Source: Rhizobium sp. N324
Lineage (GTDB): Bacteria > Pseudomonadota > Alphaproteobacteria > Rhizobiales > Rhizobiaceae
DNA length: 64,000 nt
Direction: 5' to 3'
Assembly (NCBI RefSeq): GCF_001664485.1
Contig: NZ_CP013630.1
Location: 623,001-687,000 of the forward strand
Shown here: piece after piece, positions 4,431-30,039 of the stretch
Numbering within the stretch: position 1 is the first letter of the stretch
Layout of the letters: every line of letters starts with the position of its first letter
The notes under the pieces: generated by a model
Databases searched by the model: none
The model's input: the letters and a program-made list of their open reading frames with translations, nothing else
What the model was told of the DNA's origin: nothing
Position numbers and translations under genes: made by a program

Positions 4431-5483
4431 ATGCAGGACAACGAAGTCATCATTGAACGCCGGGGCACCGCCGGCATCATCCGGCTCAACCGGCCGCGGG
4501 CGTTGAACAGCCTGACGCTGCCGATGATCCGGATGATCACCGACGCGCTTGATGGCTTTGCCGATGATGCCGCGGTGGCGAGTGTCGTGGCGACGGGCGA
4601 GGGGGAGCGCGGCTTCTGCGCCGGCGGCGATATCCGCGCCCTGCATGAGAGCGCCCGCGCCGGCGACGGCCTCGCCGGAACCTTCTGGCGCGAGGAATTC
4701 CGCCTCAACCATCAGATCGCCTCCTACCCCAAACCCTATATCGCGCTGATGGACGGCATCACCATGGGCGGCGGCGTCGGGCTCTCTTCGCATGGCCGCC
4801 ACCGCATCGTCACCGAGCGCACCCGGCTCGCCATGCCCGAAACCGGCATCGGCTATGTCCCCGATGTCGGGGCCACCTGGCTGCTGCCGAAGGCGCCCGG
4901 CGAAGCCGGAACATGGCTCGGCCTGACCGGGCTCGATATCGGTGCCGCCGACGCGATCCACGCCGGGCTGGCCGATCGTCACATCGCATCGTCGCGGCTC
5001 GGCGCGGTGATCGAGGCGCTGTCGGTCCTGCCCCGCGGCAGCGCATCCAGCGACGTCGATACCCTCTTGCAGCAGCTTGCGGAACCTGCCGGAGAAAGCC
5101 GGCTCAGGCAGAACGCGGCGATGATCGACCGCGCCTTTCGTTTCGACAGCGTCGAGCAGATCCTGGCGGCACTGGCCGGAGAGGAGGGCGACTTCGCCGC
5201 CGAGACCCGCCGGGTGCTGCTGACGCGCTCGCCGACCAGCCTGAAACTTGCTTTGGCACTGCTGAGAGCCGGCCGCCGCAGCGCCTCGCTGGCCGAATGC
5301 CTCGGCCGTGAACTCGGCGCCTGCCTGCAGATGCTCGATAATCCGGATTTCTTCGAAGGCATCCGCGCCGCCGTCATCGACAAGGACCGCAACCCGAAAT
5401 GGTCGCCGGCCTCGGTCGAGGCGGTGGGAGCTGCAAGGATCGAGCATTTTCTGAAGCCGGCCGAACCGCCGCTGTCTCTCTGA
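4431..5483 (+). CDS. Enoyl-CoA hydratase/isomerase family, 3-hydroxyisobutyryl-CoA hydrolase-like
   Basis: A crotonase-fold enzyme of 350 residues, the length of 3-hydroxyisobutyryl-CoA hydrolases of valine breakdown and longer than simple enoyl-CoA hydratases (about 260). The oxyanion-hole segments FCAGGDI and GITMGGGVGL are present, and MPETGIGYVPDVG carries the Glu and Asp positions used by the hydrolase branch. The start is ATG at 4431 with GGAGG nine bases upstream; an open frame back to 4356 lacks such a site. The hydrolase is known to release 3-hydroxyisobutyrate from its CoA ester. No other valine-degradation gene is adjacent, so the exact CoA substrate is inferred from family resemblance. 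Confidence 0.85.
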   Translation: MQDNEVIIERRGTAGIIRLNRPRALNSLTLPMIRMITDALDGFADDAAVASVVATGEGERGFCAGGDIRALHESARAGDGLAGTFWREEFRLNHQIASYPKPYIALMDGITMGGGVGLSSHGRHRIVTERTRLAMPETGIGYVPDVGATWLLPKAPGEAGTWLGLTGLDIGAADAIHAGLADRHIASSRLGAVIEALSVLPRGSASSDVDTLLQQLAEPAGESRLRQNAAMIDRAFRFDSVEQILAALAGEEGDFAAETRRVLLTRSPTSLKLALALLRAGRRSASLAECLGRELGACLQMLDNPDFFEGIRAAVIDKDRNPKWSPASVEAVGAARIEHFLKPAEPPLSL

Positions 5484-5496
5484 GACGATAGTCGAT

Positions 5497-15970: not shown

Positions 15971-16008
15971 AGCCCGAAGGCCGATTCCTGAATTAGGACG
16001 GACCGATC

Positions 16009-16221
16009 ATGCCCGAAGACAACAAAGCCGCCGCCAAGGTCGAGCCGCTGCGTAAGGCGCGCCCTTGCCCTGAATGCGGCAAACCCTCACATCGCGAACA
16101 TTACCCCTTCTGCTCCAACCGCTGCCGCGAGGTCGATCTCTCCCGCTGGCTGACCGGCGCCTACGCGATTCCCGTTGCCGACGACGAGACGAAGGCCGAA
16201 TATCCGGATGAGGAAAACTAA
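16009..16221 (+). CDS. yacG: DNA gyrase inhibitor YacG
   Basis: A 70-residue zinc protein: CPECGK near residue 22 and [15 protein letters not shown] near residue 42 provide the four zinc cysteines (C-x2-C, C-x3-C) and the conserved RCR-DL-RWL signature. It is known to bind GyrB and inhibit DNA gyrase. AGGACGGACC lies just before the ATG. It ends the infA-maf-yacG group and is followed directly by a mosaic repeat. Confidence 0.96.
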
Positions 16222-16350
16222 AGCGTGTCGCGCAAAACTGTGCAGCGGTTTTCCCAGTCAAAGCGCGAAGCGCTTTTGCCGTAACGACATGCGTAAAACA
16301 AAGAACTAAAGCGCAAGGAGCGAATCTGAAAGATCGCGACGCGCTTTAGA
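16222..16350. repeat. Mosaic intergenic repeat, copy 2
   Basis: Begins right after the yacG stop: AAAGCGTGTCGCGCAAAACT, then GCAGCGGTTTTCCCAG, AAAGCGCGAAGCGCTTTTGC (perfect short hairpin GCGC-GAA-GCGC), ACGACATGCGTAAAACAAAG and a closing AAAGATCGCGACGCGCTTTA. It is the longest copy; its middle part matches 47528-47562 and its outer parts match 12577-12634 and the inverse of 60264-60365. It accounts for most of the 300-base gap before tRNA-Phe. Confidence 0.7.
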
Positions 16351-16430
16351 GAAGTCGCCCAGCGAAGCTGTTATTTTTCCTCATGAATCCGCAAAACGCG
16401 CAAGGCCGTCAAAAAAGTGTCGTTTGACCG

Positions 16431-16459
16431 CTTGCCATGAGCGAACAAGATGCTATAAC
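16431..16459 (+). promoter_or_regulatory. Probable tRNA-Phe promoter
   Basis: CTTGCCA (16431-16437) resembles the rhizobial CTTGAC -35 element and is followed, after 16 bases, by TATAAC at 16454-16459. It lies about 70 bases before the mature tRNA 5' end. A TTGACC at 16424 has too long a spacer (24 bases) to serve. Confidence 0.5.
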
Positions 16460-16528
16460 CCCGCTCGCTTCCGGGGCGCACCAAGGCTCCGCGGTTCTTT
16501 TCCTAAAAAGATCCATCGGAAGCAGGTT

Positions 16529-16604
16529 GCCCAGGTAGCTCAGTTGGTAGAGCAGCGGATTGAAAATCCGCGTGTCACTGGTTCGATTCCGGTCCTGGGC
16601 ACCA
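16529..16604 (+). tRNA. tRNA-Phe (anticodon GAA)
   Basis: A full cloverleaf of 76 bases with encoded CCA: acceptor GCCCAGG pairing with CCTGGGC, D-arm AGCTCAGTTGGTAGAGCA, anticodon stem GCGGA/TCCGC with loop TTGAAAA giving GAA, variable GTGTC and T-arm GGTTCGATTCC. ORFs over it are artefacts. Confidence 0.98.
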
Positions 16605-16754
16605 TTAAGACAAGCCAATACTTTCAGAAAATATCGCGCATTCCCAATGCGTCCTATCCCCTTTCTGAGGCTCGTTGTGGGCCAGCTCGTAACACGGGGG
16701 CGGTGCAAGCGGTGACGTTGCCGGACTTTTGCGAATGGCCCGGCTCGTCGAGGC

Positions 16755-17834
16755 TTACGACAGCTTCCTGATGGCGCTGTAAATGATGTTGCGGTTGGCA
16801 CCGAACCAGACCGTGTTATCGACCGGGTTTTCCGTCGCGCTATTGGCAATATGCCGCATGTTGGCCTCGGAACGCTGGAGGAGCTCCCAGTTCATATAGG
16901 ATTCCATGTATCCGTCATCGGCCATTTCGTCGGAGAAGTTGGCAAATAGAAAGACGCCACCGGGCTTCAGCATTTCCATGGAAATCTGCGTCAGTCGGAT
17001 TGCGACCTTATCGGTGAGGTAATCGTACAGCCCTGCGGCGTAGATCAGATCGAAGGTGCCGATCTGGTGCTTTCGCGCCAGTAGACCGCGCACGGATCCG
17101 TTGATCGGCTCGACGGACGTTCCCTGGAATTGGCGTGAGATCGAGCCGATACTTTCGGGGTCCTGATCAAGGGCAACCCAGCGTTTGAGGCGGCCTTCCG
17201 CAAGTGCTTTGGATGCCTCCGCTTCGCGAAGGTGACCGGCGGCGATGGCGAGGATCTCCGTACCCGAACCCGTTCGCGCAGCGGTCTCATCAACGTAGCG
17301 GGTCAGGGTGTCGCGACGTTCCCTGACGGCGACCGGGCCGGGAGCGTTTATCGTGTATTCGAAGATATTCAGACCGTGCAGGGTGGACTTGGCCACTTCT
17401 TCGGCCACCGCCGGGTGCCCATAGATAAAGTCTATAAGACTGGCATCGCCGGAATAGCCGCGAGGTTTTTCAAACGACCAACGCGTGAACGGGCACTGCT
17501 GCAGAATCTTTGCCGAGGGATGGGCCTGAATAAGCGGGATGAGCTTCTGCCATACAGCCGCGCCGTATTTATGCCGGATGTCATGGAGCTGGCCAATCAA
17601 CCACCTGACTGCGTCCGGCAGGTCTTTGCCCGCGGCGAACCGCTGCATTGCAATGTTGATGACAATTGCAAACTCAGCCTCCGCAATTCTGAGGCGTTCT
17701 GTTTCATTGTCTTTGTTAGGTGAGGGGAACCTGTTGCTGACGGATTGCGGTGTAATCAAGCTTTGGCCATCGAGAGAAAAGAGGGGCTGCGCCACGGAAA
17801 CCTCATCGGTGAATAGAGATTTAAAACATTGCAT
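16755..17834 (-). CDS. SAM-dependent methyltransferase, PhcB-like architecture
   Basis: A 359-residue cytoplasmic protein in two parts. Residues about 45-165 form a helical region ending in CPFTRWSFEKPRGYSGDASL and IDFIYGH; the KPRGYSGDA signature recurs in proteins annotated as 3-hydroxypalmitic acid methyl ester (extracellular factor) biosynthesis. The second half is a Rossmann methyltransferase: ILAIAAGHLREAEASK as the SAM loop, WVALDQDPES as motif II, FDLIYAAGLYDYL and MLKPGGVFLFANFS as motifs IV-V. The link to a fatty-acid methyl ester signal is inference from this resemblance. It is transcribed away from the GGDEF-EAL gene at 18056; no sensor like PhcS/PhcR is adjacent. Confidence 0.75.
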   Translation of the reverse strand: MQCFKSLFTDEVSVAQPLFSLDGQSLITPQSVSNRFPSPNKDNETERLRIAEAEFAIVINIAMQRFAAGKDLPDAVRWLIGQLHDIRHKYGAAVWQKLIPLIQAHPSAKILQQCPFTRWSFEKPRGYSGDASLIDFIYGHPAVAEEVAKSTLHGLNIFEYTINAPGPVAVRERRDTLTRYVDETAARTGSGTEILAIAAGHLREAEASKALAEGRLKRWVALDQDPESIGSISRQFQGTSVEPINGSVRGLLARKHQIGTFDLIYAAGLYDYLTDKVAIRLTQISMEMLKPGGVFLFANFSDEMADDGYMESYMNWELLQRSEANMRHIANSATENPVDNTVWFGANRNIIYSAIRKLS

Positions 17835-18055
17835 AAAATCTTCAGCATTCTCATGAAGGTCAAGCGTTAAAGTTGGAGAAAGTGTCCCTGGTGCACGTCT
17901 TAGCTTTAGAAAATATTAGTGAACCCAAGAGATACTCCGCCCGCTTTGGCATCGTTCGAGCGTTATCGGTTGATGAGGGGTCTGCGTAGGGCTATCCAAC
18001 TTCAGCTAGCGGTTTGCGTCGGGCAACTGCTGCAAGGATGTTGGGTGGCAGGGGC

Positions 18056-20062
18056 ATGATGCACGTGTTAGCCGAGACCGCAGTCGCCGCCGCGCGGCCG
18101 ACACTGTCGCCAGAACAGTTGCGTGGTCTTTATAAGCAGGAGAGCGAGAGCAGCCGAACGAGCGCTACGCGCAAGGGCCTCTGGATCGCGGTCGCAGCTT
18201 ACCTTGCCTACTCTGTCACCGACTATCTCTTTATCGGCGATGTCGTCCAGTACACGATCGCCGGCCGATTGGCGGTTGGCGCCGGTGCGCTCTGCATTCT
18301 GGAACTCTTACTTTACTGCAAGGCAAAGGCCGATACGGTGGACATGGCCGCGGCGGTGTCCGTGCTGGCAGCCTATCTTGTCTGGCTTCTGACCGGCCAG
18401 ATGACCACGGTCAGGGACGCATTCTCATATTACATGGTTTTTGGCGCGATCTTCATGATGAGCGTCAACCTGTTCTTCAGTTTCCGTTTTCCGGTTGCTC
18501 TTGCCGCTTCCGCAACGAACGTGCTTATCTTCATCGGCGCCCTCTATCTGTTCGTGCCGATGTTGATTCTGCACAAGCTGATCCTCGGCGCGTTCTGCAT
18601 TTCCTGCTTTATTTTTACCTCTTACGTGAACCTTCAGCTCAATAGAGAGCGCTACAAGGTGTTCCTCAATGCTCTTGAAGCTCGTCGTCAGCAAGCTGCT
18701 GCCGACGAGCGGGGCAAGGCTCTTTTGCACCTCTCGAACACCGACGCGTTGACCGGCCTGGAAAATCGCCGGGCAATCGATCAACGCCTGCGTGATCATT
18801 GGCAACGCTGGCAGGATCAGAGGACGCCCTTTGCCGTCCTGCTGATCGATGTGGATTATTTCAAACGCTACAACGACTGTTACGGTCACCAGGAAGGCGA
18901 CCGGTGCCTCGTGGCTGTCTCCCAGCTTCTCCAAAACGTGGCCTCCTCCTGGGGCTCGATCATCGGACGATACGGAGGTGAGGAATTCCTGGTCGTCACA
19001 CCAATGCCCAGTTTAGAAACAGCGACCGAACTCGCAGAAGCAATGTGTGCTGCCGTCCGCGCATTGGCTTGGCCCCACGAGCACAGACGAGACGGGACCA
19101 CCGTCATCACCGTGAGTGTCGGCCTGTCCTATACGCGCGACCAGACCAAGCAGGTCGACAAGGTCATTCACGAAGCCGATCGTGCGCTTTATGCCGCCAA
19201 GGCGACGGGTCGTGACAGCCTCGTGGTCTTCGATGCTGATGATCCGCATTGCAGCGATGACAGCGAGGATATAGCCACGACCCTGAAGATCGCGCTTGAA
19301 CACGGCCTTGTCTCGCTCGTCTATCAGCCGATCCGTAACGTCCAGACAGGCACGACTGACGCTGTCGAAGCTCTGATGCGTTTGCGGATGTTGGACGGGA
19401 CGCCTGTCGCGCCTGCCATATTTATACCAGTTGCGGAAAGAACCGGGTCGATCATTGAACTGGGCCGATGGGCAATTCGCACGGTTTGCCGAGACCTGCT
19501 GGCAACCGACCTGGTGCAAGTCGCCAGCGTCAACGTTTCGCCGATCGAACTGAAGATGCCAGGTTTCGCCAGCTATGTCGCAGCGACACTCGCAGAATTC
19601 GGCGTGACGGGCGCCCGGCTTGCTTTCGAAATTACCGAAGGAATGGAGCTGGAAATCGACCAGGACGTGGTGCGCTGCATCGGCGATCTGAGAAAGCTGG
19701 GCGCTCAAGTCTGGCTCGACGATTTTGGCACAGGGTTCGCGGGGCTCTCCTGGCTTCGCCTCATAGAATTTGACACCATCAAGATCGATCGCTCCTTCCT
19801 CCATGACTGCAGCACGGAGAGAGGCAAGAGGATGTTGCTCGACATCATCAGCCTGCTGCGCAATCGCGGCGTGAGGATCCTCATTGAAGGCGTCGAGACT
19901 ATCGAACATCAGCGACTGATGCAGCAGTACGGAATCAACCAGCTGCAGGGATATTACATTGGACGACCCGCGCCGGCCGCTCAGTTTGAAAATGATAATG
20001 TGCTGCCGTTCGGGATGGTCAGGAACCCTGACCCCAGACGCCTATTTCGGAATGGCCCATAG
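18056..20062 (+). CDS. Membrane GGDEF-EAL cyclic-di-GMP protein (second)
   Basis: About 668 residues. Residues about 40-190 hold five or six membrane helices with little periplasmic loop; then a linker, a diguanylate cyclase domain with RYGGEEFLVV (about 305-314), and a phosphodiesterase domain with VEALMRLR, NVSPIELK, FEITEG, LDDFGTGFAG, KIDRSF, EGVET and LQGYYIGRP, all metal- and substrate-binding residues retained. Both activities are therefore possible. The start is uncertain: ATGs at 18038, 18056 and 18059 are in frame and AGGGG lies near the latter two. It precedes a type I secretion operon on the opposite strand and may set cyclic di-GMP for that surface locus. Confidence 0.9.
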   Translation: MMHVLAETAVAAARPTLSPEQLRGLYKQESESSRTSATRKGLWIAVAAYLAYSVTDYLFIGDVVQYTIAGRLAVGAGALCILELLLYCKAKADTVDMAAAVSVLAAYLVWLLTGQMTTVRDAFSYYMVFGAIFMMSVNLFFSFRFPVALAASATNVLIFIGALYLFVPMLILHKLILGAFCISCFIFTSYVNLQLNRERYKVFLNALEARRQQAAADERGKALLHLSNTDALTGLENRRAIDQRLRDHWQRWQDQRTPFAVLLIDVDYFKRYNDCYGHQEGDRCLVAVSQLLQNVASSWGSIIGRYGGEEFLVVTPMPSLETATELAEAMCAAVRALAWPHEHRRDGTTVITVSVGLSYTRDQTKQVDKVIHEADRALYAAKATGRDSLVVFDADDPHCSDDSEDIATTLKIALEHGLVSLVYQPIRNVQTGTTDAVEALMRLRMLDGTPVAPAIFIPVAERTGSIIELGRWAIRTVCRDLLATDLVQVASVNVSPIELKMPGFASYVAATLAEFGVTGARLAFEITEGMELEIDQDVVRCIGDLRKLGAQVWLDDFGTGFAGLSWLRLIEFDTIKIDRSFLHDCSTERGKRMLLDIISLLRNRGVRILIEGVETIEHQRLMQQYGINQLQGYYIGRPAPAAQFENDNVLPFGMVRNPDPRRLFRNGP

Positions 20063-20213
20063 GTTCTGATCCACAGCGGCCACCTTGTGATCGAGCCGGC
20101 TGCTTTTCGAACAGCATCTCGTTGTCCCCATTGGGGGAGGCGCCCTCGTCCAACAATATCATGCCGCGCCCCTGATAGGGTCGGGAGGCGGCCAACGAAC
20201 CGCTGTTCAGGCG

Positions 20214-20492
20214 TTAGTTTCGCCCTTTCGATGTCTTCGCCAGCATCTCGCTCAGCGTTGCCGCCGAGAGCATGGATTCGGCCAAGAGCTTTTTGAGCTT
20301 CTGGTTCTCCTCCTCCAGGGCTCGCACCCTTCTGGCATGGAGGCCGAGATTTCCAAACTGCAGCGATTGCCACCGATAGAAGGTCGGCTCGCTGATGCCG
20401 TATCTGTGGCAAACATCTGCCACCGTCACCCCCGCCTGGTGCTCCTTCAGAATGCCCGTAATCTGGTCGTCGTCGAACTTTCGCTTGCCCAT
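20214..20492 (-). mobile_element. Orphan IS3-family transposase OrfA (remnant)
   Basis: A 92-residue protein typical of IS3/IS407-group OrfA: MGKRKFDDDQITGILKEHQA, a helix-turn-helix (VADVCHRYGISEPTFYRWQ) and a leucine-rich coiled end (RVRALEEENQKLKKLLAESM). Normally a frameshift joins it to OrfB, which carries the DDE catalytic core; no OrfB sequence follows in 20063-20213, so it cannot transpose itself. Its ATG lies 8 bases beyond the secretion adaptor stop, and the C-terminus of that adaptor looks intact, so the insertion ended at the gene boundary. No clear terminal inverted repeats were found. Confidence 0.85.
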
Positions 20493-20499
20493 CACCGCA

Positions 20500-21939
20500 T
20501 CAATCCTCACGAAATGCTCTGTTGAAACTGTCGAGCAGTGGTCTGACGGCATAGAGTGCGACGCTGCTTTTGCCTGTTTCGATCAGTGTCTGCACGGGCA
20601 TGCCCGCGACCAGTTCGACATCCTTCATCTTCGCCAGCCGCTCATCGGTTACGCGGATCGTCGCGGCAAAATAGGGCTGGCCGCTCTGAGTGTCGGTGAG
20701 ACGATCGGCTGATACATACTCGACTCGGCCTTTCAGCAGTGGAACGCGCCGCTGATTGTAGGGAAGGAGGTGAACCTGTGCCTCCAGCCCCGCATGAACG
20801 AGATTGATGTCCTCGGGTCTGACATGGGCAGACACGATCAGGCGATCGGCGCGTGGCAGAAGATCGACGAGCGGTTCACCCGCGCCGATCACCCCGCCTG
20901 ACGTGTGGATGCGCAGGTTCATGATTGTTCCGTCTTCGGGCGCCCGGATATCGGTCCTTGAAAGCTGATCGTCGATCGCCCGCAAGCGCTCGCGCAATTG
21001 CATGATCTGGCTTTCCGCGGCCCGCATGCCCTGGGCGACTTCGCTCAGCCGGTCGCTCTCGATCTTTGCGAGATCGGCCTGCGTCTCGCTGATCACCTGG
21101 TAGGCGCGAGAGATCTGTGCCGCGACTTGACCCTGCTGGCCATCAATGTCTGCTTTCTCCCGCTGGAGGTTGAGAAGCCTGCTCCTTGTTTCCAGTCCTT
21201 TGGCGTTGAGGGCCGTCACCTGCTCCAGTTCCTGGGCCGAAATTGCGGCTCTGTCGGCCAATGAAGCCTTCTGCGCGCCAAGTCCGACGATTTCCTGCCG
21301 CACCTGGGCGATTTTTTCATCGGCGATCTGAATTTCCGCCTGCACGACCCGGCGACGGGCTTCGAAGATTTTCTGCTGGCCGATCAGAACCGCGCTGACC
21401 GAAGGATATTTGTCGATTGCTGCGCTGAGATCCTCGGGATAGGCGACATGGTCGTCGCCCGTCTGCTCCGCGGACAGGCGCGCGCGGCTTCCTTCGGCGT
21501 CCCAAAGCTGCCCTTGAATGCTGTCTCGCTCCGAGCGAAACTTCGTGTCGTCGAGTTCTATCACGATTTGCCCGGCCATCACCGCATCGCCGTTTCTGAC
21601 GAGGATCCGTCGCACGATTCCGCCTTCGAGATGCTGAATGGTCTTGCGGCTGAACTCCGGTTCGATAACGCCCGATGCGATTGCAGCGCTTTTCAGCGGC
21701 GCCAGAACCGACCAGATTCCCAAGCCGACGATGAAAACCAGGATCAACAGGTTCCCCGTCCAGACAACACCTCTGAGCCTCGGCATGGGCGAAGGGGGAG
21801 CGGGTCCGCGCTGTTTCTGTTCGATCACCGGCGCATAGGCGGTTTGCTGCCTGGCTGTCGGTCGTTGAGCGAACCGCTGGTCCATCCTTGACGAATTTGA
21901 ATATCTCGCCGGCGTGGCGTTCATTGGAACAAGGGTCAT
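20500..21939 (-). CDS. Type I secretion periplasmic adaptor (HlyD/PrsE family)
   Basis: A 479-residue membrane-fusion protein linking an inner-membrane ABC exporter to an outer-membrane TolC-type channel. A disordered proline/glutamine-rich N-terminus of about 55 residues precedes one membrane helix (NLLILVFIVGLGIWSVL), then the biotinyl-lipoyl half motif SGVIEPEFSRKTIQHLEGGIV, a long coiled coil (about 150-330), the second lipoyl half with DIRAPEDGTIMNL, and a beta-barrel ending LLDSFNRAFRED, as in rhizobial PrsE. GGAGG precedes the ATG. It starts 17 bases after the ABC gene stop, so the two form an operon. No outer-membrane channel gene is in the window. Confidence 0.92.
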   Translation of the reverse strand: MTLVPMNATPARYSNSSRMDQRFAQRPTARQQTAYAPVIEQKQRGPAPPSPMPRLRGVVWTGNLLILVFIVGLGIWSVLAPLKSAAIASGVIEPEFSRKTIQHLEGGIVRRILVRNGDAVMAGQIVIELDDTKFRSERDSIQGQLWDAEGSRARLSAEQTGDDHVAYPEDLSAAIDKYPSVSAVLIGQQKIFEARRRVVQAEIQIADEKIAQVRQEIVGLGAQKASLADRAAISAQELEQVTALNAKGLETRSRLLNLQREKADIDGQQGQVAAQISRAYQVISETQADLAKIESDRLSEVAQGMRAAESQIMQLRERLRAIDDQLSRTDIRAPEDGTIMNLRIHTSGGVIGAGEPLVDLLPRADRLIVSAHVRPEDINLVHAGLEAQVHLLPYNQRRVPLLKGRVEYVSADRLTDTQSGQPYFAATIRVTDERLAKMKDVELVAGMPVQTLIETGKSSVALYAVRPLLDSFNRAFRED

Positions 21940-21956
21940 GGCAGCGTCCCTCCTTC

Positions 21957-23672
21957 CTACGTTCCTGTTCGAGACGGTGGTTGAAGATAGGTTTCATAAA
22001 TCCGCTCGCTGTCGCCGAAGGCAGCCACGGTCCCGTTGCGCATGATGGCGATCTTGTTGGTGACCGGCAGGATCCCCATCCGGTGTGTTATGATAACGAC
22101 GGTCATCCCCCTCGATCTCATGCGCTCGATGGCCATAAACAGCATGCGTTCGCCGTCGTAATCCAGGCTCGAATTGGGATCGTCGAGAACGATCAGAGAC
22201 GGATTTCCATAGGCCGCCCTTGCCAGTCCCAGCTGTTGGCGCTGCGCCCGGAGGAGCAGGTTCCCGCCTTCGCCGATATCGGTATCGTAACCCTGCGGCA
22301 GCCGCATGATCGCCTCGTGCAATCCAACCAGCTTTGCGGCGTCGATCGCCTTGCCGGGATCTCCTCCATCAAGCCGGCCGATCACATCCCTGATTGCGCC
22401 GCCGAAGAGTTCGATGTCCTGCGGCAGATATCCGACGTGGCCGCTCCCCCCGCAACGGCGCAGAGCCGAGATATCGACCCCACCGAGAAGCGCATATCCG
22501 CTCGTTGCCGGCACAACGCCTGCCATCACGCGACCCAGCGTCGATTTCCCCGATCCCGATGGACCGATGAGCGCTATGCAATCGCCAGGTGCCAGGCGCA
22601 AGGTGATATCACTCAATATCGGCCGATCGGCGAATGGCTTGATATAGCTGACATTATCGAGAAGCAGGCCATTGGGTTCCGGCAGCGGCACGATGCCGGC
22701 ATCGCGTTCCGATGCGACTGTTATCAGCATTCCGTTCAAGCGATTGAACGCGTTGCGCGCAAACGCAAAGGAGCGCCATGCCCCTATTGCACCCTCGATA
22801 GGCGCAAGCCCGCGCCCGAGCAGCAGACTTGAGACGAAGATGATCCCGGGACTGCCGCTGTTGACGAGCACCAGCCATGTCGCCGATCCCATCATCAGGA
22901 TCTGCGCGAGTGTGCGGATCGATTTGGAGATACCCAGTATGATCTCCGTGCGATGCATCGCGATGTCCTGGGCCCTTCTTGCCATTTCCGCATCGCGGTA
23001 GACGATCAGCGCTGCGCCGTCCTGCATGCCCATGGCCCGGATGACCTCGAGGTTTTTCAGCGCGGTCGCAAATCGCACATAACTCCTCGAAAGGGCAAGA
23101 TTGGCGTGGGCAAGCGGCTCTCGTGTCGCCAGTTCCGTCATCAACGCAGACAGCAGCAGCGCAACTGCGCAGAGAAGACCGATGGTCCCAAGCAGCGGAT
23201 GAACAAGAAAGAGCAGGAGCAGGAATACCGGCGCCCAGGGAACGTCAAAAAACAGCGAGCTGGCCGGTGAATCGAGGAACTGGCGCAATGCAGCCAGGTC
23301 CCTGTAGCACTCCGTGGCGGCTCCCGTATCGGCGCGGGCGGCATATTCGAACGAGGCGGTGAGCACCATGGGCCGGAGCCTATGGTCCAGCCAGCTGCCG
23401 ATGCGCGAAAGAGCTGCCCTGCGCACAATATCCAGCGTGGACCCGACCAGCACGGCGGCGGCGATGATGATCGTCAGCATCACCAGCGTGTCGGCGCTTC
23501 GGCTCGACATGACCCTGTCATAGATTTGCAGAAGATAGAGGGAAGGGGCGAGAAGAAAGAGATTGTAGCCGCAGCTATAAAGGAAGACCAACCCGAAGGC
23601 CCCGGCACAAGCCCGAAGCGCAACAACGAGCTGTGTCGGCGGTCGCGGTGGCTTTATGGAAATCGTTGTCAT
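21957..23672 (-). CDS. Type I secretion ABC permease/ATPase with degenerate catalytic motifs
   Basis: A 571-residue half-transporter of the PrtD/PrsD type. Five to six membrane helices (about 15-300) precede the nucleotide-binding domain. Walker A (GPSGSGKST), the Q-loop (YLPQDIELFGG), D-loop (SSLD) and switch histidine (IITHRMG) are normal. However, the ABC signature expected as LSGGQ reads LLRAQ within GEGGNLLLRAQRQQ, and Walker B is LIVLDDPN, with Asp where the catalytic Glu normally lies. Homodimers would have two altered sites. Start ATG 23672 (MTTISIKPP) was preferred to the open frame from 23732. It is downstream of a glycine-rich protein gene, its probable cargo, and upstream of the adaptor. 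Confidence 0.92.
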   Translation of the reverse strand: MTTISIKPPRPPTQLVVALRACAGAFGLVFLYSCGYNLFLLAPSLYLLQIYDRVMSSRSADTLVMLTIIIAAAVLVGSTLDIVRRAALSRIGSWLDHRLRPMVLTASFEYAARADTGAATECYRDLAALRQFLDSPASSLFFDVPWAPVFLLLLFLVHPLLGTIGLLCAVALLLSALMTELATREPLAHANLALSRSYVRFATALKNLEVIRAMGMQDGAALIVYRDAEMARRAQDIAMHRTEIILGISKSIRTLAQILMMGSATWLVLVNSGSPGIIFVSSLLLGRGLAPIEGAIGAWRSFAFARNAFNRLNGMLITVASERDAGIVPLPEPNGLLLDNVSYIKPFADRPILSDITLRLAPGDCIALIGPSGSGKSTLGRVMAGVVPATSGYALLGGVDISALRRCGGSGHVGYLPQDIELFGGAIRDVIGRLDGGDPGKAIDAAKLVGLHEAIMRLPQGYDTDIGEGGNLLLRAQRQQLGLARAAYGNPSLIVLDDPNSSLDYDGERMLFMAIERMRSRGMTVVIITHRMGILPVTNKIAIMRNGTVAAFGDSERIYETYLQPPSRTGT

Positions 23673-23740
23673 TATCAGATCTCGCTGCTGCACTTGATAC
23701 TGACAAAAGGAGGCTGCTTGCAGGTTTGGCAATTGAGGAG

Positions 23741-23764
23741 GGTCGCCGGCCGAAACCGGCGACC
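23741..23764 (-). terminator. Intercistronic hairpin before the secretion ATPase
   Basis: GGTCGCCGG (23741-23749) and CCGGCGACC (23756-23764) form a perfect 9-bp GC stem around CCGAAA. It lies 15 bases after the glycine-rich gene's stop and about 70 before the ATPase start on the same strand. No U tract follows, so it is better read as a partial terminator or mRNA-stabilising stem that would let cargo mRNA exceed transporter mRNA. Confidence 0.6.
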
Positions 23765-23778
23765 TTCAGGGCCTGACT

Positions 23779-24354
23779 TCACGAGCCGAGATGGTCGACG
23801 TCGATATGGCCGAAGGCGTTGATGAAGTGATCGAGAGAATTGTTCACCGTCGTCGTGTCGGGATTGGTGTGAACCAGAGCTGACGAGATATCGCCGCCTA
23901 GTGCGTTGTTCCCGTTGCCGCCGTTGCCGCCGACGCCTGCGAGGATGGTGGCATGCTGATCGGCCACAAGCTGCGTATATTGGGTGGCGGTCGTCGCCGC
24001 AGCCACCGCAGCCGTGTCATGGCCGCTTGAGTTTCCTTGACTGCCGTTGGAGTTGGAATCTCCGCCCGCGCCGCCGGCGCCGCTGTTCGATATTGCCGCC
24101 AGGAAGCCGTTCTGGGCCTGGGTAAAGCCACCGGGTCCGCCATGGCCGGCGTCCCAACCTGCCGTCTGCCAAACGTGATCGCCGTTGTGCAGATGGGTAG
24201 ATGCCCCGTCGACCGTTTGCACGGGGTCTACATAGGCAACCGGGTTGTAGTTGATGTTTCCATTGTTGTGGCCATCACCGCCGTTGCCGGCATTCGCGTC
24301 TCCTGCATCTGGGTGATTGAGGTGAATCGTGTCAGATATTTGTGGAATAGGCAT
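23779..24354 (-). CDS. Glycine/asparagine-rich protein, probable type I secretion cargo
   Basis: 191 residues starting MPIPQISDTIHLNHPD, with AAGGAG upstream; the longer frame to 24426 lacks a ribosome-binding site. It has no Sec signal, is rich in Gly, Asn, Ala and His, and contains runs such as AGNGGDGHNNGNINYN, SNSGAGGAGGDSNSNG and AGVGGNGGNGNN. Its C-terminus (SSALVHTNPDTTTVNNSLDHFINAFGHIDVDHLGS) is hydrophobic-acidic, as often seen in C-terminal type I secretion signals. It is the first gene of the ATPase-adaptor operon. Classical GGxGxDxxx calcium-binding repeats are absent. The GGNGG motif is shared with the divergent gene at 24832. Role as an exported surface or matrix protein is inferred. 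Confidence 0.75.
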   Translation of the reverse strand: MPIPQISDTIHLNHPDAGDANAGNGGDGHNNGNINYNPVAYVDPVQTVDGASTHLHNGDHVWQTAGWDAGHGGPGGFTQAQNGFLAAISNSGAGGAGGDSNSNGSQGNSSGHDTAAVAAATTATQYTQLVADQHATILAGVGGNGGNGNNALGGDISSALVHTNPDTTTVNNSLDHFINAFGHIDVDHLGS

Positions 24355-24831
24355 TGATGTCACTCCTTCTACTTTGTTGCGTCTGAGTTCGTTTGACGGC
24401 GTCCCCCTGCGGCCTGCGTCCAGCATGTCGCCGCAGCCAATACAACCGCCGGGGAATATTGCCTGCGATTTAATCTGTGGCCTATCTAGATATTCGGCGG
24501 CATTCCTTCGGATGTATACTTCGAGAAGATGGAGCGTTATTTGGATTGGTACTCGATGATTTGGGTCAAGGTGGCATGGTCACGATCACGTCTGCCACCT
24601 CGTCGAGGCGACGCCAGGGCCTTTCATCCAAAAGCGGATTTAGTGCTCGAAGGCGCACGCAACGGTCGCTGCTGTCGTGACAGCCAAATGGCTATAGACC
24701 TAGCCGACAGGATGTAGACGAATTGCAGGCTCTGCTTTTCCCACGTTCGGATGCACAATGCCCGAACGATTCAGGCTGCACGGCGCCATACTCGGTGAAC
24801 GTGTGGTCGTCGACCGCGAATGGAGACGGTA
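24355..24831. promoter_or_regulatory. Shared upstream region of the two glycine-rich genes
   Basis: 477 bases between divergent starts. It must contain both promoters, but I cannot point to a convincing -35/-10 pair. The middle part (about 24450-24540) is less GC-rich than its surroundings (TTTAATCTGTGG, TCTAGATATTCGG). Short ORFs here lack coding bias. I see no inverted repeat strong enough to name as an operator. Confidence 0.4.
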
Positions 24832-25920
24832 ATGGCGGAAACTCGTCCCTTATTGGAAGACCAGCCCAAGTCGGGCACAGATCAACACCTCGCCTCCAAT
24901 GTGGCCGCGGGGCATCTGGCACTGGTGCCGACCTGGCTTCCATTGGATGTGACGTCCGGTCCAAGTCATAGTTCGGCCGGCAGCGGGGGTGACGGGATCA
25001 GCGAAGGCGTGATCAGCAGCAATGCCTTGGCCGTCTTCATGCCGTCCAATGCGGCGATTGCGGGGCCGCATTCGGGTGCCGACGCCTTCCAGGGCAACAA
25101 TGCGCTCATCAATCAGCATCCCACCGAAATGGCGGGGATCGGCGGCAATGGCGGAAGCGGCAATGTTGCCATCGGCAGCGGCGACGGCGGCAGTCATGCC
25201 GGCACCGGGGGCAACGGGGTCTTCTACGGTGGGCTGGTCAGCACCGAAGTCGCGCTGTTTGCCCCAGTGAATACTGCTGTGGCTGCGGGCCCCGGCGCGG
25301 AGGCTCACGCCGAGCAATCGAACAACGCAATGTTCCTGCAGGGCGCAACCCAGATCGGCGGCATGGGCGGCTCGGGCGGAGACCATAACACCGCGGGCCA
25401 TGGCTCGTCGATGAGCCCGGGAACTGCGCTGACATTGACCGGTGATTTTTATGCCGGCCACGGCGGCGACGGTTATTTCGTCGGCAGCATGGTCGACGTC
25501 AGTATTGCCATCTTCTCGCCGATCAACATCGCCATTGGCGCCGCAGGCGGCTCGGCGGAGGCGCATCAGACAAACAATGTCATTTTCGATCAGGGCACGG
25601 TGCAGATCGCGGGCATCGGCGGCAATGGCGGCGGCTTCAATCTGTCGTCGGACACGATTTTTACCGGCAATCATGCCGGTGGCGGTGGCGGCGTCGGATC
25701 GTCGACCGGCAGCATGGTCGACGTCAATTTCGGCTATTTCCATCCCATCAACATTGCCGTTCCCGCCGGTGGGACCGCGGACGCCCAGCAGACCGATCAT
25801 GTTCTCTACGATCAGCACGCGCTTCAGCTGGCCGGCATCGCGGGCCACGGCGGGGAGGGTAACCTGACGGACGCCCATTCGGCTCTGGTAGACGACATTC
25901 TGAGCTTCATGCACAGCTAA
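24832..25920 (+). CDS. Glycine-rich protein with four approximate 75-residue repeats, probable secreted
   Basis: 362 residues beginning MAETRPLLEDQPKSG; GGAG seven bases upstream supports this ATG over the one at 24820. After an approximately 45-residue leader, four degenerate units follow, each with G-D/N-G-hydrophobic-x-G-x-hydrophobic, a conserved (A/I)F-x-P-(S/V/I)N-x-A core, A-(D/E)-A-x-Q-x-N(N/D) and ending Q-x-A-G-I-G-G-N-G-G. Examples are AIFSPINIAIGAAGG and GYFHPINIAVPAGG. Regular alternation of hydrophobic and glycine residues suggests a beta-roll or beta-solenoid. No Sec signal is seen. The C-terminus ends DDILSFMHS, hydrophobic and acidic. It is divergent from the secretion operon and is inferred to use it. 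I recognise no named family. Confidence 0.75.
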   Translation: MAETRPLLEDQPKSGTDQHLASNVAAGHLALVPTWLPLDVTSGPSHSSAGSGGDGISEGVISSNALAVFMPSNAAIAGPHSGADAFQGNNALINQHPTEMAGIGGNGGSGNVAIGSGDGGSHAGTGGNGVFYGGLVSTEVALFAPVNTAVAAGPGAEAHAEQSNNAMFLQGATQIGGMGGSGGDHNTAGHGSSMSPGTALTLTGDFYAGHGGDGYFVGSMVDVSIAIFSPINIAIGAAGGSAEAHQTNNVIFDQGTVQIAGIGGNGGGFNLSSDTIFTGNHAGGGGGVGSSTGSMVDVNFGYFHPINIAVPAGGTADAQQTDHVLYDQHALQLAGIAGHGGEGNLTDAHSALVDDILSFMHS

Positions 25921-26592
25921 CAGATAGCCTCCCCACCTCCATGGCGCGGGCTCAACTGCACGACATCGTTCTTCGTGCGACTTTTCAGGCCACGTGTTGA
26001 TCCCTTCCTTCGCCGGCTTTCGTCTCTTGGCCCGACATGGCGTCCAGCGGCCGTCTCGCTGAAATACCGACCATTCCACCATAAACCAATCTGCTCGTCG
26101 GCGACTTCGAGGAGGTCGCCGGCGCCTGCGCGGTATTTCTTGAGGGAATTGCGTCTTTAGAGCGCAGTTTTTACTAATCATAACGGGTAGGCGGTGTTCC
26201 CAGGCTTTTGTTGCTTTTCCCTGTTGTCGTTTTGCTGTCGAGATATGCAACCACTTTGAGTTGAGATTGCGCAACAAAGCCCAGCCGATCGGCCGCTGTT
26301 TTTGTCCAGCAGGTCGTTGCTAATAGGTCTGTAGAATATTGTTTGTTTTTTCAGCGCCTTTGAAAGTTTTGTTGACTTGCTCGCCATGCGTAAACTCGAA
26401 GACGTTTGGAAAGTCTTTAATAGAAAGTCGAACCGGCATATAATCGTGAACAATCTCTTGAATGTGTTTTGCGGGGCCAGTTGTCGCTCGCAGAAATTTT
26501 ATAGACTATAAGAATTATCATGAGAGATACGGCTGTTTATATCGACAATACACTCGCTTTTTATCATGACATGTAGCAAGAACAGGGATAGG
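25921..26592. other. Gap between glycine-rich gene and LuxR-type regulator
   Basis: About 670 bases without a credible gene. Near 26099-26121 a short stem CGGCGAC/GTCGCCG could form. From about 26160 to 26565 the base composition is clearly more AT-rich than the rest of the window (for example TATTGTTTGTTTTT near 26337 and TTTTATAGACTATAAGAATTATC near 26496), as expected for a regulatory region or horizontally acquired DNA. Frames on both strands lack coding bias. Confidence 0.4.
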
Positions 26593-27366
26593 ATGAGTGA
26601 CTGTTGGGTTGCACACATTCTGGGGAGCACGCAAGTGTCCGACAGTGCTGGAATAAAGCGCCGGCGCAATGCACCAACTGTGATCATTATTGAGCATTCT
26701 ACACTGGCGCGCACGACCGTGGTGAAGCTTCTGGAGCGGGAACTCGCCGGGTGGAACTTTATCGATTTGATTTCGACCGAGAGTCTCGACCGAGCGCTCG
26801 GCGCCGAGGTACGTCTGATCGCATTGGATCTGGCGGGCAGAGACGTCGAGAGCGCCAGCCTGCGTGATGATCTCGCCGCGATTGCTGCACGTTTTCCTGA
26901 GGCGCCTATCACGTTGCTCTCAGCTACGGATGACGCCATCATAGCGCGTCAGGCGCTCAAGATCGGCATCCGCGGCTTTTTCTCGACTTCACTTCAAATC
27001 GACATTGCCCTTGCCGGTCTTCGGCTCGTTCTGGCAGGAGGAACATTTTTCCCGCAGCTCTTGGGAGCCGCTGCAAACGGCTCAAACGAGCATAGCCCGG
27101 CCAGAAATGAGGCCGAAAAAAGCTTGGATGACAGGACGCAGTACCTGGCGCTTGCCGATTTCACGCCCCGGGAGGCGGATGTCCTCGCGGAGTTGCAATC
27201 CGGCTGCTCAAACAAGGTCATTGCCGGAAAACTCAATTTGTCGGGGCATACGGTGAAGATGCATCTGCAGCACATCATGCGCAAGCTGCAGGCGCAGAAC
27301 CGCACTGAAGTGGTTGCCCGCCTGATTCAAAGAGCCGCCGGTGGCCCTGACGCCTCGCCGAGCTAG
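26593..27366 (+). CDS. LuxR-family response regulator with atypical receiver
   Basis: A 257-residue transcription factor. The N-terminal domain resembles a receiver: VIIIEHSTLART, LIALDLAGRD (possible phospho-acceptor Asp), TLLSATDD and GIRGFFSTS. One of the paired N-terminal acids is His and the conserved Lys near the end is replaced, so phosphorylation may not control it. The C-terminus has a GerE/LuxR helix-turn-helix: FTPREADVLAELQSGCSNKVIAGKLNLSGHTVKMHLQHIMRKL. ATG 26593 follows AGGGATAGG; ATG 26566 is an alternative without a site. It is convergent with the diguanylate cyclase (5 bases apart). Position suggests it controls the glycine-rich/secretion genes. Confidence 0.85.
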   Translation: MSDCWVAHILGSTQVSDSAGIKRRRNAPTVIIIEHSTLARTTVVKLLERELAGWNFIDLISTESLDRALGAEVRLIALDLAGRDVESASLRDDLAAIAARFPEAPITLLSATDDAIIARQALKIGIRGFFSTSLQIDIALAGLRLVLAGGTFFPQLLGAAANGSNEHSPARNEAEKSLDDRTQYLALADFTPREADVLAELQSGCSNKVIAGKLNLSGHTVKMHLQHIMRKLQAQNRTEVVARLIQRAAGGPDASPS

Positions 27367-27371
27367 AGTTT

Positions 27372-29354
27372 TTAGGCGCCTATCTGCTGTATCGGCGTGT
27401 CAGCAGAAGGCTCGGCAACGACGGCCTGATTTCGCCCTGCCTGCTTGGCGCGATAGAGCGCGCGATCAGCTTCGAGCAATAGCGCTTCCGGAGAGATATT
27501 CTCGTTCGGCGCTGCCAGCGCAATGCCGACGCTGAGCGTCACGTGCCCGAAAGGCGATCCTTCATGCGCCAGCTTGACGACCGCCATTGCCGAACACAGG
27601 GCCTGTCCGATGGCGGGCGCGTTCTTGGCTGAGGCGATCCGTGCAATGATGGCGAATTCCTCTCCGCCATAGCGGGCAACGAGGTCCTGTTGGCTGCGCG
27701 TATTGCGTTCCAGCACCCCGGCGATTTCCTTCAGGCAGGCGTCTCCCGCCGGATGGCCGTATCGGTCGTTGTAACCTTTGAACCAGTCGGCATCCACCAT
27801 GGCAAGCATCAGCAGGTCCTGACCTTGCCCAAGCCCGGCGAGCTCGCTTGCGAGAACCGCGTCGAAGCGACGGCGATTGGCGACGCCCGTCATCTCGTCC
27901 GTCTGGCTGATCGTCACGAGCTTCTGATTGAGCCGCTCCAGCTCGGAGGTTCGATCCCGTATCTTGCCCTCAAGCGCCTCATGGGCTGCGTGAACGCGCG
28001 CGGCCATCGACGCAAAATCGCGGGCAAGCTCGCCGATCTCGTCGTCGGAGTGCGTGGGCAGGGCGTCGTTGGCAACGGTAACGCCGGAGCGGCCGACCAG
28101 CTGCGTGGCGTGAATCAATCGCACCAACGGTTCGGCGACCTGCTTTTGCAAGATCGAACGGAGGATGAAGAGTTCGACGAACAGGGTGAGCAACCCGACC
28201 GCGACGACGATCCCGAGATTGGTGAGGACGGCGGGCCGCATCAGAGATTTCGGATAGTGGACGGCAAGCACCCAGGGCGTATCCGGAATCCGGCCGACCG
28301 CGGCAATTTCGCTGGCGCTGTCGACGAGCGACACCGAACCCGCTCCGATCGACCGGCTCGCCTTCAGCAATGGCTGGTAGTCGGCGAGTGCCAAGGAGGA
28401 AATCGAGGCTTCGCCAGCGCTGGCCGTGATCGCATCGGCATATTTGCTGTCGAAGATCAGAGTTCCCTGATCATCGGCCGCAAAGATCGTCGCGCGTGCG
28501 CCCGGCAGCGTCGGATTTGCGGTTCGTTTCATCAGATCGGCGAGCAGCACGTCGACGCAGGCCATGATGCGATGCTTGCCTGAAGCGTCAGGCGCATCGG
28601 GCGTCGCGATCGTCGTCATCCATGCATTGTTGGAGGGATCCCAATAGATGCGCGTAAAGAACGTATCGTTTTGAGGCCCGCCGAAGCCGCGGGAGAAAAA
28701 TTCGAAAGTCTCGAGCTTCAGCGCATCCGGGCCTTCATATTTGAAAACCTTGGCGATGTCGGCAGCCTGATAGATCGGGAAGCCTTTTTCCGGAACCACG
28801 CCGTAGAAATTGAAGAGGCGGCCCTTGGTGGCAGAACCGAATTGGTAAGAGAGCAGGTAAGACAGCGCAAACCGCGTTTTCACGTCCTCATCCGGCGTCA
28901 CGTCGGGCGCGTAGGTCGCCGACATGTCGGGAAATCTGCGCCCATCGGGCAAAGGCTCGCCTTCAAACAATCCGGGACGCTGGGTGTAGGATCCATCCTC
29001 ATGGCGATAGAAAATATCATCGAAACTCCGTGCCAAGGATTGCCGGGCTTCCGGTATCGCGTAGATCCTGCTGAATTCGGCAAGGAAATTCTTTTGGAGG
29101 TCCTTCACTTCGCGGAAGGGCAGCGACTCGCGCTGCAAAGCCTGCTCCGTCGAAAAGGAGAGCTGCGAGCGCAACGAGCGCTCAAGCGCGGAATGATTGA
29201 TGAAATAGGACACGCCGCCGGCACAGGCGCAGACCAGCGCGATCCGCAGTGCCGCAAGCCGCAACGCCCGCGACGCCAGAGTATGGCGTGTTTTCTGCTT
29301 CACCTTCGGTCTGAAGACCATCCTCAACAACGTGCTCATGCCGGTGCCGCTCAT
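27372..29354 (-). CDS. Membrane-bound diguanylate cyclase with periplasmic sensor and HAMP
   Basis: About 660 residues. A first membrane helix (ALRIALVCACAGGVSYFI) precedes a large periplasmic sensor of roughly 310 residues, which resembles a double Cache/dCache fold (TLIFDSKYAD, TPWVLAVHYPKS near its end). A second helix (NLGIVVAVGLLTLFVELFIL), a HAMP region (EPLVRLIHATQLVGRSG to DDEIGELARDFASMAARV), a coiled coil and a GGDEF domain with VDADWFKGYND and RYGGEEFAII follow; the cyclase motif is intact and there is no EAL domain. GGAG seven bases before ATG 29354 fixes the start over the frame from 29441. It should raise cyclic di-GMP in response to an external ligand. Confidence 0.92.
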   Translation of the reverse strand: MSGTGMSTLLRMVFRPKVKQKTRHTLASRALRLAALRIALVCACAGGVSYFINHSALERSLRSQLSFSTEQALQRESLPFREVKDLQKNFLAEFSRIYAIPEARQSLARSFDDIFYRHEDGSYTQRPGLFEGEPLPDGRRFPDMSATYAPDVTPDEDVKTRFALSYLLSYQFGSATKGRLFNFYGVVPEKGFPIYQAADIAKVFKYEGPDALKLETFEFFSRGFGGPQNDTFFTRIYWDPSNNAWMTTIATPDAPDASGKHRIMACVDVLLADLMKRTANPTLPGARATIFAADDQGTLIFDSKYADAITASAGEASISSLALADYQPLLKASRSIGAGSVSLVDSASEIAAVGRIPDTPWVLAVHYPKSLMRPAVLTNLGIVVAVGLLTLFVELFILRSILQKQVAEPLVRLIHATQLVGRSGVTVANDALPTHSDDEIGELARDFASMAARVHAAHEALEGKIRDRTSELERLNQKLVTISQTDEMTGVANRRRFDAVLASELAGLGQGQDLLMLAMVDADWFKGYNDRYGHPAGDACLKEIAGVLERNTRSQQDLVARYGGEEFAIIARIASAKNAPAIGQALCSAMAVVKLAHEGSPFGHVTLSVGIALAAPNENISPEALLLEADRALYRAKQAGRNQAVVAEPSADTPIQQIGA

Positions 29355-29502
29355 TTCAGTGCTCCGGCCTGCATGATCGACAACCCGATTGCGTCGACCG
29401 CTCGCATGCCAATAACCAGCAGGCTGCTCGAGATCATGCATTTACCTCAGTCGTTGGAAGCAAGCCCGTCCGGCTGCCCCTCGAGAGCAGCATCAAGACG
29501 TC

Positions 29503-29691
29503 GTGCATTTATGGGCATCGGGGAAAGCGCCACAATTCATTCGTGGCGTGACGAGTTCGGCAGCGGCGCCGAAGCTCGGCCAGCGCATCGAGACATTGCT
29601 CGAAGGACTGGAGCCATTAAGGCGTGGCGAGAAGTTAACAAAGGATGCCGACGTCGAAGCGCCGCCGAAGTTGCCTGCGCGATTCGGATAA
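29503..29691 (+). CDS. Possible small protein, weak support
   Basis: A GTG-started frame of 62 codons with a plausible amphipathic helix (GQRIETLLEGLEPLRRGEKL). Codon third-position bias is weaker than in surrounding genes and there is no clear ribosome-binding site. It lies in the 487-base gap between the diguanylate cyclase start (29354) and the gene at 29842; apart from this frame I see nothing in that gap. Confidence 0.25.
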   Translation: MHLWASGKAPQFIRGVTSSAAAPKLGQRIETLLEGLEPLRRGEKLTKDADVEAPPKLPARFG

Positions 29692-29841
29692 ACTTCGCAA
29701 AACGGATCAGACGGTTGCGCTGGCGGTCGCGCGGCGTGTCAGCCCTCGGGTGTTCGTTTCAGCTGGTCTCATATCGTGAATCCCAGGTGGGAACCGCGAG
29801 TCCGGCCGTCCGTTACTCCTAAAGGAATGGAGGACATGGAC

Positions 29842-30039
29842 ATGCGCAAGAAGAAGAAAGCCATCGTCGAGGCGGCGCTCGAGTCCGAGTATGAGCGCCA
29901 GCCGCTCGGGATCATGAATACGGAACAGGCGCTGGAGCTTGAGGATTCCGACGGTCTTGTGTTCAGTCATCCGGACAAAGAGGCCGGGGTAACCGATCAT
30001 TTCGTCGATCAGGACCAGTTGCGCCGATTGGTGCAGTAG
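29842..30039 (+). CDS. Small acidic protein, function unknown
   Basis: 65 residues from ATG 29842 (MRKKKKAIVEAALES), preceded by GGAGG at eight bases; ATGs at 29827 and 29836 are in frame but poorly spaced from a site. The N-terminus is lysine-rich and the rest acidic, with ALELEDSDGLVFSHPDKEAG. No membrane segment or cysteine. It converges on the SDR gene with 32 bases between stops. I do not recognise the family. Confidence 0.6.
   Translation: MRKKKKAIVEAALESEYERQPLGIMNTEQALELEDSDGLVFSHPDKEAGVTDHFVDQDQLRRLVQ

Follow-up and report, generated by a model that had tools for sequence, protein, structure and literature searches.

A working ABC ATPase is conventionally recognised by its LSGGQ signature and its Walker B glutamate, and where one site of a transporter is altered, the usual explanation is that its second site is good. 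In TAP, MRP1, CFTR, Pdr5 and TmrAB, as described in the accessible parts of PMC7756269 and PMC8277102, an altered signature and a Glu-to-Asp replacement in Walker B are the hallmark changes; each half contributes one of them, and together they make up a single altered site beside a good one. The closest described system to the locus studied here is TobDE of Rhizobium leguminosarum bv. viciae 3841 (RL0623/RL0622), a PrsDE-like pair in which the ATPase lies beside the adaptor, as here; tobDE and toaDE were both named in that strain and called enigmatic (PMC2275737). According to the accessible text of that study, no secreted protein needing TobDE or ToaDE was found in single, double and triple mutants, a tobD mutant was unchanged in supernatant proteins, biofilm and nodulation, and TobD has a 52% identical relative with similar surroundings in B. 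japonicum. On TobD itself the same text mentions Walker A alone; a substrate, the glycine-rich proteins introduced below as GRP1 and GRP2, and altered motifs are absent from it. The accessible part of PMC10925705 merely repeats the names TobDE and ToaDE, and a search of mostly non-subscription literature returned nothing on altered motifs in TobD.

The window, that is, the whole stretch of 64,000 nucleotides from Rhizobium sp. N324 that was analysed, contains the features given below. Coordinates of the motifs were derived from the residue number n as 23672-3(n-1), and the start of GRP1 was placed at 24354, from where its relatives align. The Arg clade comprises the loci whose ATPase has Arg at position 3 of the ABC signature; group III is its sister clade.

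20214..20552, minus strand: small PF01527 helix-turn-helix (HTH) protein, possible regulator (PF01527 match; overlaps the end of the adaptor gene)
20500..21939, minus strand: HlyD-family membrane fusion (adaptor) protein, probable TobE (TIGR01843, 360.9 bits, cut-off 208.65)
21957..23672, minus strand: PrtD-type type I secretion permease/ATPase, probable TobD (TIGR01842, above cut-off)
22172..22183, minus strand: altered Walker B LDDP, residues 496-499, with Asp498 replacing the catalytic Glu (from residue numbers)
22238..22252, minus strand: altered ABC signature LLRAQ, residues 473-477, with Arg475 at position 3 (from residue numbers)
23779..24354, minus strand: GRP1, glycine-rich, 191 aa, candidate cargo (beside the ATPase in 58/59 Arg-clade loci)
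24820..25920, plus strand: GRP2, 366 aa, tandem glycine-rich modules, candidate cargo (in 57/59 Arg-clade loci)
26566..27366, plus strand: LuxR/NarL-type regulator linked to the cluster (PF00196; in 58/59 Arg-clade and 12/13 group III loci)

The ATPase frame runs from an ATG at 23672 to 21957 on the minus strand, a strand left unspecified in the first-pass annotation, and encodes 571 amino acids without an internal stop. The protein scores 540.4 bits against NCBIfam TIGR01842 (type_I_sec_PrtD; curated cut-off 510.15), and the closest solved structure is that of Aquifex PrtD (5l22), a 39-residue stretch of which was aligned with the segment IGEGGNLLLRAQRQQLGLARAAYGNPSLIVLDDPNSSLD. Gene order, the position among the paralogues and the identity to Bradyrhizobium relatives agree with PMC2275737. 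The ATPase is very probably the TobD known from R. leguminosarum, and we use this name below. Translation and alignment confirmed the reading, made in the first-pass annotation, of LLRAQ and LDDPN in a domain with intact Walker A (GPSGSGKS), Q-loop (YLPQD), D-loop (SSLD) and switch histidine (in ITHRMG). The signature is devoid of Ser2 and Gly4 of the LSGGQ type, and Walker B reads LDDPN, not LDEPN, without the catalytic Glu; Asp498 retains a carboxylate, and the loss of Glu is thus milder than a change to Gln or Ala. The same annotation held both LSGGQ and the Walker B Glu to be essential in ordinary exporters. That both are altered here stands, but their being essential was put too strongly, as there are related clades in which only the signature, or only the switch His, is lost, and known slow sites usually have Asp.

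The homologue search produced 2291 matches, of which 120 were listed, two of them being fragments without the motif region. Arg occupies signature position 3 in all 118 listed homologues that contain the region (120 listed of 2291 matches), 68 of them with LDD and 50 with LDE. Among the matches listed, the LDD members are named Rhizobium, Ensifer/Sinorhizobium, Phyllobacterium, Mesorhizobium and Ochrobactrum/Brucella pituitosa, and the group that combines LSRGF, LPRGF or FSRGY with LDE is Bradyrhizobium wherever named (13 loci). These Bradyrhizobium relatives are 51-55% identical to TobD and have the same cluster. Fifteen plasmid records carry a relative, with identities of 51-93% (E <= 1e-150). 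Related strains were checked for LSGGQ/LDE at the altered positions, and no such orthologue was found within the Arg clade among the homologues examined, so the motifs are not a local mutation.

A phylogenetic tree was built for 89 rows after removal of the signature, Walker B and switch columns (a quick search with SH-aLRT support only and with several long outgroup branches). It joins 53 Arg rows (support 100), which split into a Bradyrhizobium-type branch (99) and the rest (99). In the latter, the earliest branch is P0067 (LLRAQ, LDE), followed by P0073 (FLRSQ, LDE; 94) and then by 28 LDD rows (99). Because the LDE rows P0067 and P0073 branch before the LDD rows, the signature Arg arose first and the Glu-to-Asp change later, each once on this tree. 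The distinct, conserved class that had been envisaged for this exporter was found: homologues with the altered signature form one clade, beside glycine-rich candidate cargo.

To describe selection we used 46 distinct coding sequences of the inner (non-Bradyrhizobium) part of the clade, the rows being selected by Asp. In this set Arg475 uses six codons and Asp498 two. By parsimony, Arg475 has undergone 13 codon changes and no residue change, and Asp498, by which the sequences were selected, 7 and none; the same count gives 6 and 0 for the switch His, 5 and 0 for the Walker A Lys, and means of 9.7 codon and 2.6 residue changes per site. The invariance of Arg475 and Asp498 is not unique, as 103 of the 231 sites of the nucleotide-binding domain never change in this set. 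Among 20 close sequences, the nucleotide-binding domain has a median dN/dS ratio of 0.086 (190 pairs) and the membrane domain one of 0.135 (189 pairs). The altered motifs are real, conserved and selected, under strong constraint. That they reflect decay, a local mutation or a sequencing error is extremely improbable, given that Arg and Asp occur also in the other 45 of these 46 Asp-selected sequences and in named isolates, and that the many codon changes at the two positions left the residues unchanged. Orthologues and codon data rule out decay and sequencing error, in agreement with the initial impression that decay was unlikely.

The adaptor gene lies downstream of the ATPase gene; upstream of it are GRP1 on the same strand and GRP2 on the opposite strand. 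Cluster genes were counted by tblastn (E <= 1e-5) in 59 Arg-clade loci, comprising 43 inner loci, among which at least four pairs are the same genome reached twice, and 16 Bradyrhizobium-type loci. The inner loci contain GRP1 (43), GRP2 (42), the adaptor (43), the LuxR-type gene (42) and the HTH gene (39); the Bradyrhizobium-type loci contain GRP1 (15), GRP2 (15), the adaptor (16) and the LuxR-type gene (16), and the HTH gene in none. The adaptor is present in 59/59 loci, and GRP1 and GRP2 occur together in 57/59, the remaining two loci being cut by contig ends. GRP2 was unmatched at L105 and L121, whose contigs are 6201 and 7617 bases long. The earlier proposal that the ATPase sits beside glycine-rich cargo is borne out by the presence of both proteins at these 57 loci. 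Of 61 genomes, 23 contain GRP2, and these are precisely the ones that contain TobD; in the family sample of 394 genomes GRP2 was found in all 12 TobD genomes and in one other, G477. This co-conservation suggests that GRP1 and GRP2 are probably the exporter's cargo.

In G477 (Aminobacter-like; L230, 8890-9926, minus strand) the GRP2 relative is in two frames and lies 0.3 kb from the contig end. Neither GRP1 nor the adaptor was matched in the 10 kb around it, and no Arg-clade ATPase was found in this genome; the GRP2 relative is probably the remnant of a lost cluster.

A comparison with Pfam and NCBIfam gave no match for GRP1 and no match above a curated cut-off for GRP2; neither protein matched an RTX family in Pfam (E <= 1) or has a recognised secretion signal. 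Not all PrtD cargo is RTX. The glycine-rich modules of GRP2 are arranged in tandem with a spacing of about 75-85 residues, and some GRP2 relatives are named PE-PGRS in UniRef.

As to the other neighbours, the HTH gene, of the transposase-like PF01527, shares 53 bases with the adaptor gene. An insertion sequence (IS) scar at 20214-20552 was considered and rejected because the gene is kept in 39/43 inner loci; it is a domesticated DNA-binding gene. The LuxR/NarL-type regulator has weak similarity to CsgD (54.5 bits, cut-off 250) and, judging by its sequence, may have an unusual acidic pocket, with IEH near the N-terminus. The cluster is flanked by a GGDEF/EAL gene (18014-20062, plus strand) and a GGDEF gene (27372-29441, minus strand), which do not belong to the conserved cluster, because near-identical copies (93-95%) were found in 1/16 loci (L038). 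A tRNA gene (16529-16601, plus strand) lies about 4 kb from the adaptor gene, and a search of 16000-30000 with Rfam detected nothing beyond this one tRNA. The scan of 20000-26600 for promoters and terminators was uninformative (2 and 5 sites, compared with 2.1 and 6.0 in shuffles), and the GC content between 18000 and 28000 is 0.51-0.63.

Canonical PrtD and PrsD ATPases, such as Aquifex PrtD (5l22) and the probable PrsD of the same genome (L004), share with TobD the TIGR01842 family, the domain order and the adjoining HlyD-type adaptor gene, but they keep LSGGQ or LSAGQ together with LDE, which TobD does not. Beside canonical PrtD loci, GRP1 and GRP2 were detected in 0/20 cases (tblastn, E <= 1e-5), five of these stretches being shorter than 12 kb. 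An alignment of PrtD sequences contained 82 rows outside the altered groups, and removal of L142 and L148 (group III with His-to-Gln) left 80. All 80 of these rows retain the Glu of Walker B together with Ser2 and Gly4 of the signature. At signature position 3, 71 rows have Gly, 6 have Ala, 2 have Val and 1 has Gln; at the switch, 77 rows have His and three (L002, L087, L095) have Gln. Within-clade counts from this alignment cannot show the invariance of Arg, by which the rows were selected; the homologue list and the tree are unselected for Arg. Two further residues, near-invariant elsewhere in PrtD, are changed: Asn430 is Val in the Arg clade and Ile in Bradyrhizobium, and Arg480, just after the signature, is Gln in the LDD clade. 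These changes are possible compensation for the altered motifs.

Such compensation, having appeared along with the clade, would suit a homodimeric GRP1/GRP2 exporter that tolerates its altered motifs and hydrolyses ATP at a normal rate, as would the variation of signature position 3 elsewhere in PrtD and the carboxylate kept by Asp. We consider this somewhat unlikely in view of the strict retention of Ser2, Gly4 and the Walker B Glu in all 80 rows outside the altered groups, the alteration of a different catalytic residue in the sister clade and in ToaD, and the slowness of known Glu-to-Asp sites reported in the accessible part of PMC7756269.

In its own genome, the nearest PrtD paralogues of TobD are L002, L003 and L004, which are 35-37% identical to it; by position, L002 is probably ToaD and L004 probably PrsD. 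A beta-helix/cadherin-like protein is encoded on the promoter side of L004, which fits the published plyA-prsDE order without proving it. A further PrtD-family ATPase (E <= 1e-120) is present in 34/34 TobD genomes searched, and mixed dimers would be possible with at least one such ATPase in each. Five TobD genomes have exactly one other PrtD-family ATPase, and it is of three different kinds: in G012 it is 95% identical to L004, in G031 53%, and in G607, G760 and G788 it is of a third kind, whose members share 84-90% identity with one another and no more than 41% with each reference. At E <= 1e-220, 7/23 TobD genomes lack probable ToaD. The idea of probable ToaD or PrsD as a fixed partner was not borne out. 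A second conserved half with a complementary site was not found, since no PrtD paralogue is common to all TobD genomes in the search of the PrtD family, and no other exporter half of this type was seen in the TobD cluster.

An obligate heterodimer is therefore unlikely, no single other exporter half being common to all TobD genomes. The arrangement of the changes points in the same direction. In the transporters named at the beginning the two changes come from different halves, whereas in TobD both are in one half-transporter, which gives a homodimer with two altered sites; a normal partner would leave one defect in each site. Pairing with a normal half-transporter, proposed in the first-pass annotation as an alternative to a distinct class, thus did not hold up, and a heterodimer of TobD with a PrtD-type half such as PrsD or ToaD appears quite improbable.

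We propose, with a probability of about 0.5, that TobD is a dedicated, probably homodimeric exporter of GRP1 and GRP2 with attenuated ATP hydrolysis, where export, dimer type and rate are all inferred from sequence comparison. The ATP chemistry would have been attenuated in stages, by the signature Arg and then by Glu-to-Asp, and kept by selection afterwards. TobD would form a homodimer with two identical altered sites, as suggested by the lack of a second PrtD paralogue present in every TobD genome. ATP would still bind and close the dimer, with Walker A, Q-loop, D-loop and switch His intact, and hydrolysis would be much slower than in canonical PrtD/PrsD, with the signature Ser gone and the catalytic carboxylate one carbon shorter. 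Slow chemistry is suggested because, according to the accessible part of PMC7756269, Glu-to-Asp sites seemingly still hydrolyse, though at a rate far below that of the transport cycle, and every human degenerate site has a changed signature. ATP would then act as a long-lived clamp or gate more than as a fast motor, and the clamp may be enough to thread short, flexible glycine-rich chains outside. Several observations speak against this proposal: PrtG secretion requires ATP hydrolysis by PrtD (PMC8277102, accessible part), the tobD mutant was without phenotype, the GRPs lack both a recognised secretion signal and an RTX family match, each of the 34 genomes encodes a further PrtD ATPase, and many other sites of the nucleotide-binding domain are equally invariant.

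The missing phenotype, which refers to the conditions tested in PMC2275737, would also be consistent with a TobD that binds ATP with hardly any turnover and works as a regulated channel, an anchor or a secretion gate, with a driver other than hydrolysis. Both hallmark changes of degenerate sites are in one chain, and the degenerate site of ABCC7 holds on to its ATP for minutes (PMC7756269, accessible part). A function of this kind is unlikely: a complete adaptor gene and the candidate cargo remain linked to the ATPase, as in a working exporter, and Asp can support slow hydrolysis.

Group III, sister to the Arg clade (union support 100), consists of PrtD-like ATPases of Mesorhizobium amorphae, Aminobacter, Phyllobacterium, Microvirga lenta and Ensifer adhaerens L18. 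Unlike TobD, these ATPases keep an LSGG signature and LDE, and their switch His is replaced by Gln in 11/11 distinct coding sequences. Their loci resemble the TobD cluster in having the adaptor (13/13) and a LuxR-type gene (12/13), whereas GRP1/GRP2 matches were found in 0/13; in the seven loci examined the candidate cargo is encoded by low-complexity Asp-repeat frames upstream of the ATPase, in place of the GRP1 and GRP2 of TobD. Each of these loci (L141-L145, L147, L148; frames at about 5000-7000) has one frame with a Phe/Asp-rich tail, and the candidate cargo of Microvirga lenta (L144) also has a glycine-rich core. Matches of the group III cargo to staphylococcal SD-repeat adhesins were dismissed as composition matches far below the cut-offs. 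Probable ToaD (L002, C1:74880-76487; L211-L229) has Gln at the switch (ITQRPA) in 20/20 sequences examined, L002 included, together with intact LSGGQ and LDEPN, and forms a separate branch.

A wider and more tentative reading, which we regard as rather doubtful, is that a family of homodimeric type I systems in Rhizobiaceae, Phyllobacteriaceae, Bradyrhizobium and Microvirga gave up fast hydrolysis in both sites by different routes, one through signature Arg followed by Asp in Walker B, the other through replacement of the switch His by Gln. Their substrates would be flexible repeat proteins rich in Gly or Asp, and ATP would serve chiefly as a binding clamp; TobDE and ToaDE would both be such machines.

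A half-transporter that is maintained by selection with both marks altered, that has candidate cargo of its own and no conserved partner would provide a test of the need for ATP hydrolysis in protein export. TobDE and, probably, ToaDE, which were published without a substrate, gain a concrete peculiarity to test, and TobDE also gains two candidate substrates, GRP1 and GRP2. Soil and root-nodule bacteria retain an export pump with altered sites together with two glycine-rich proteins, which it probably exports.
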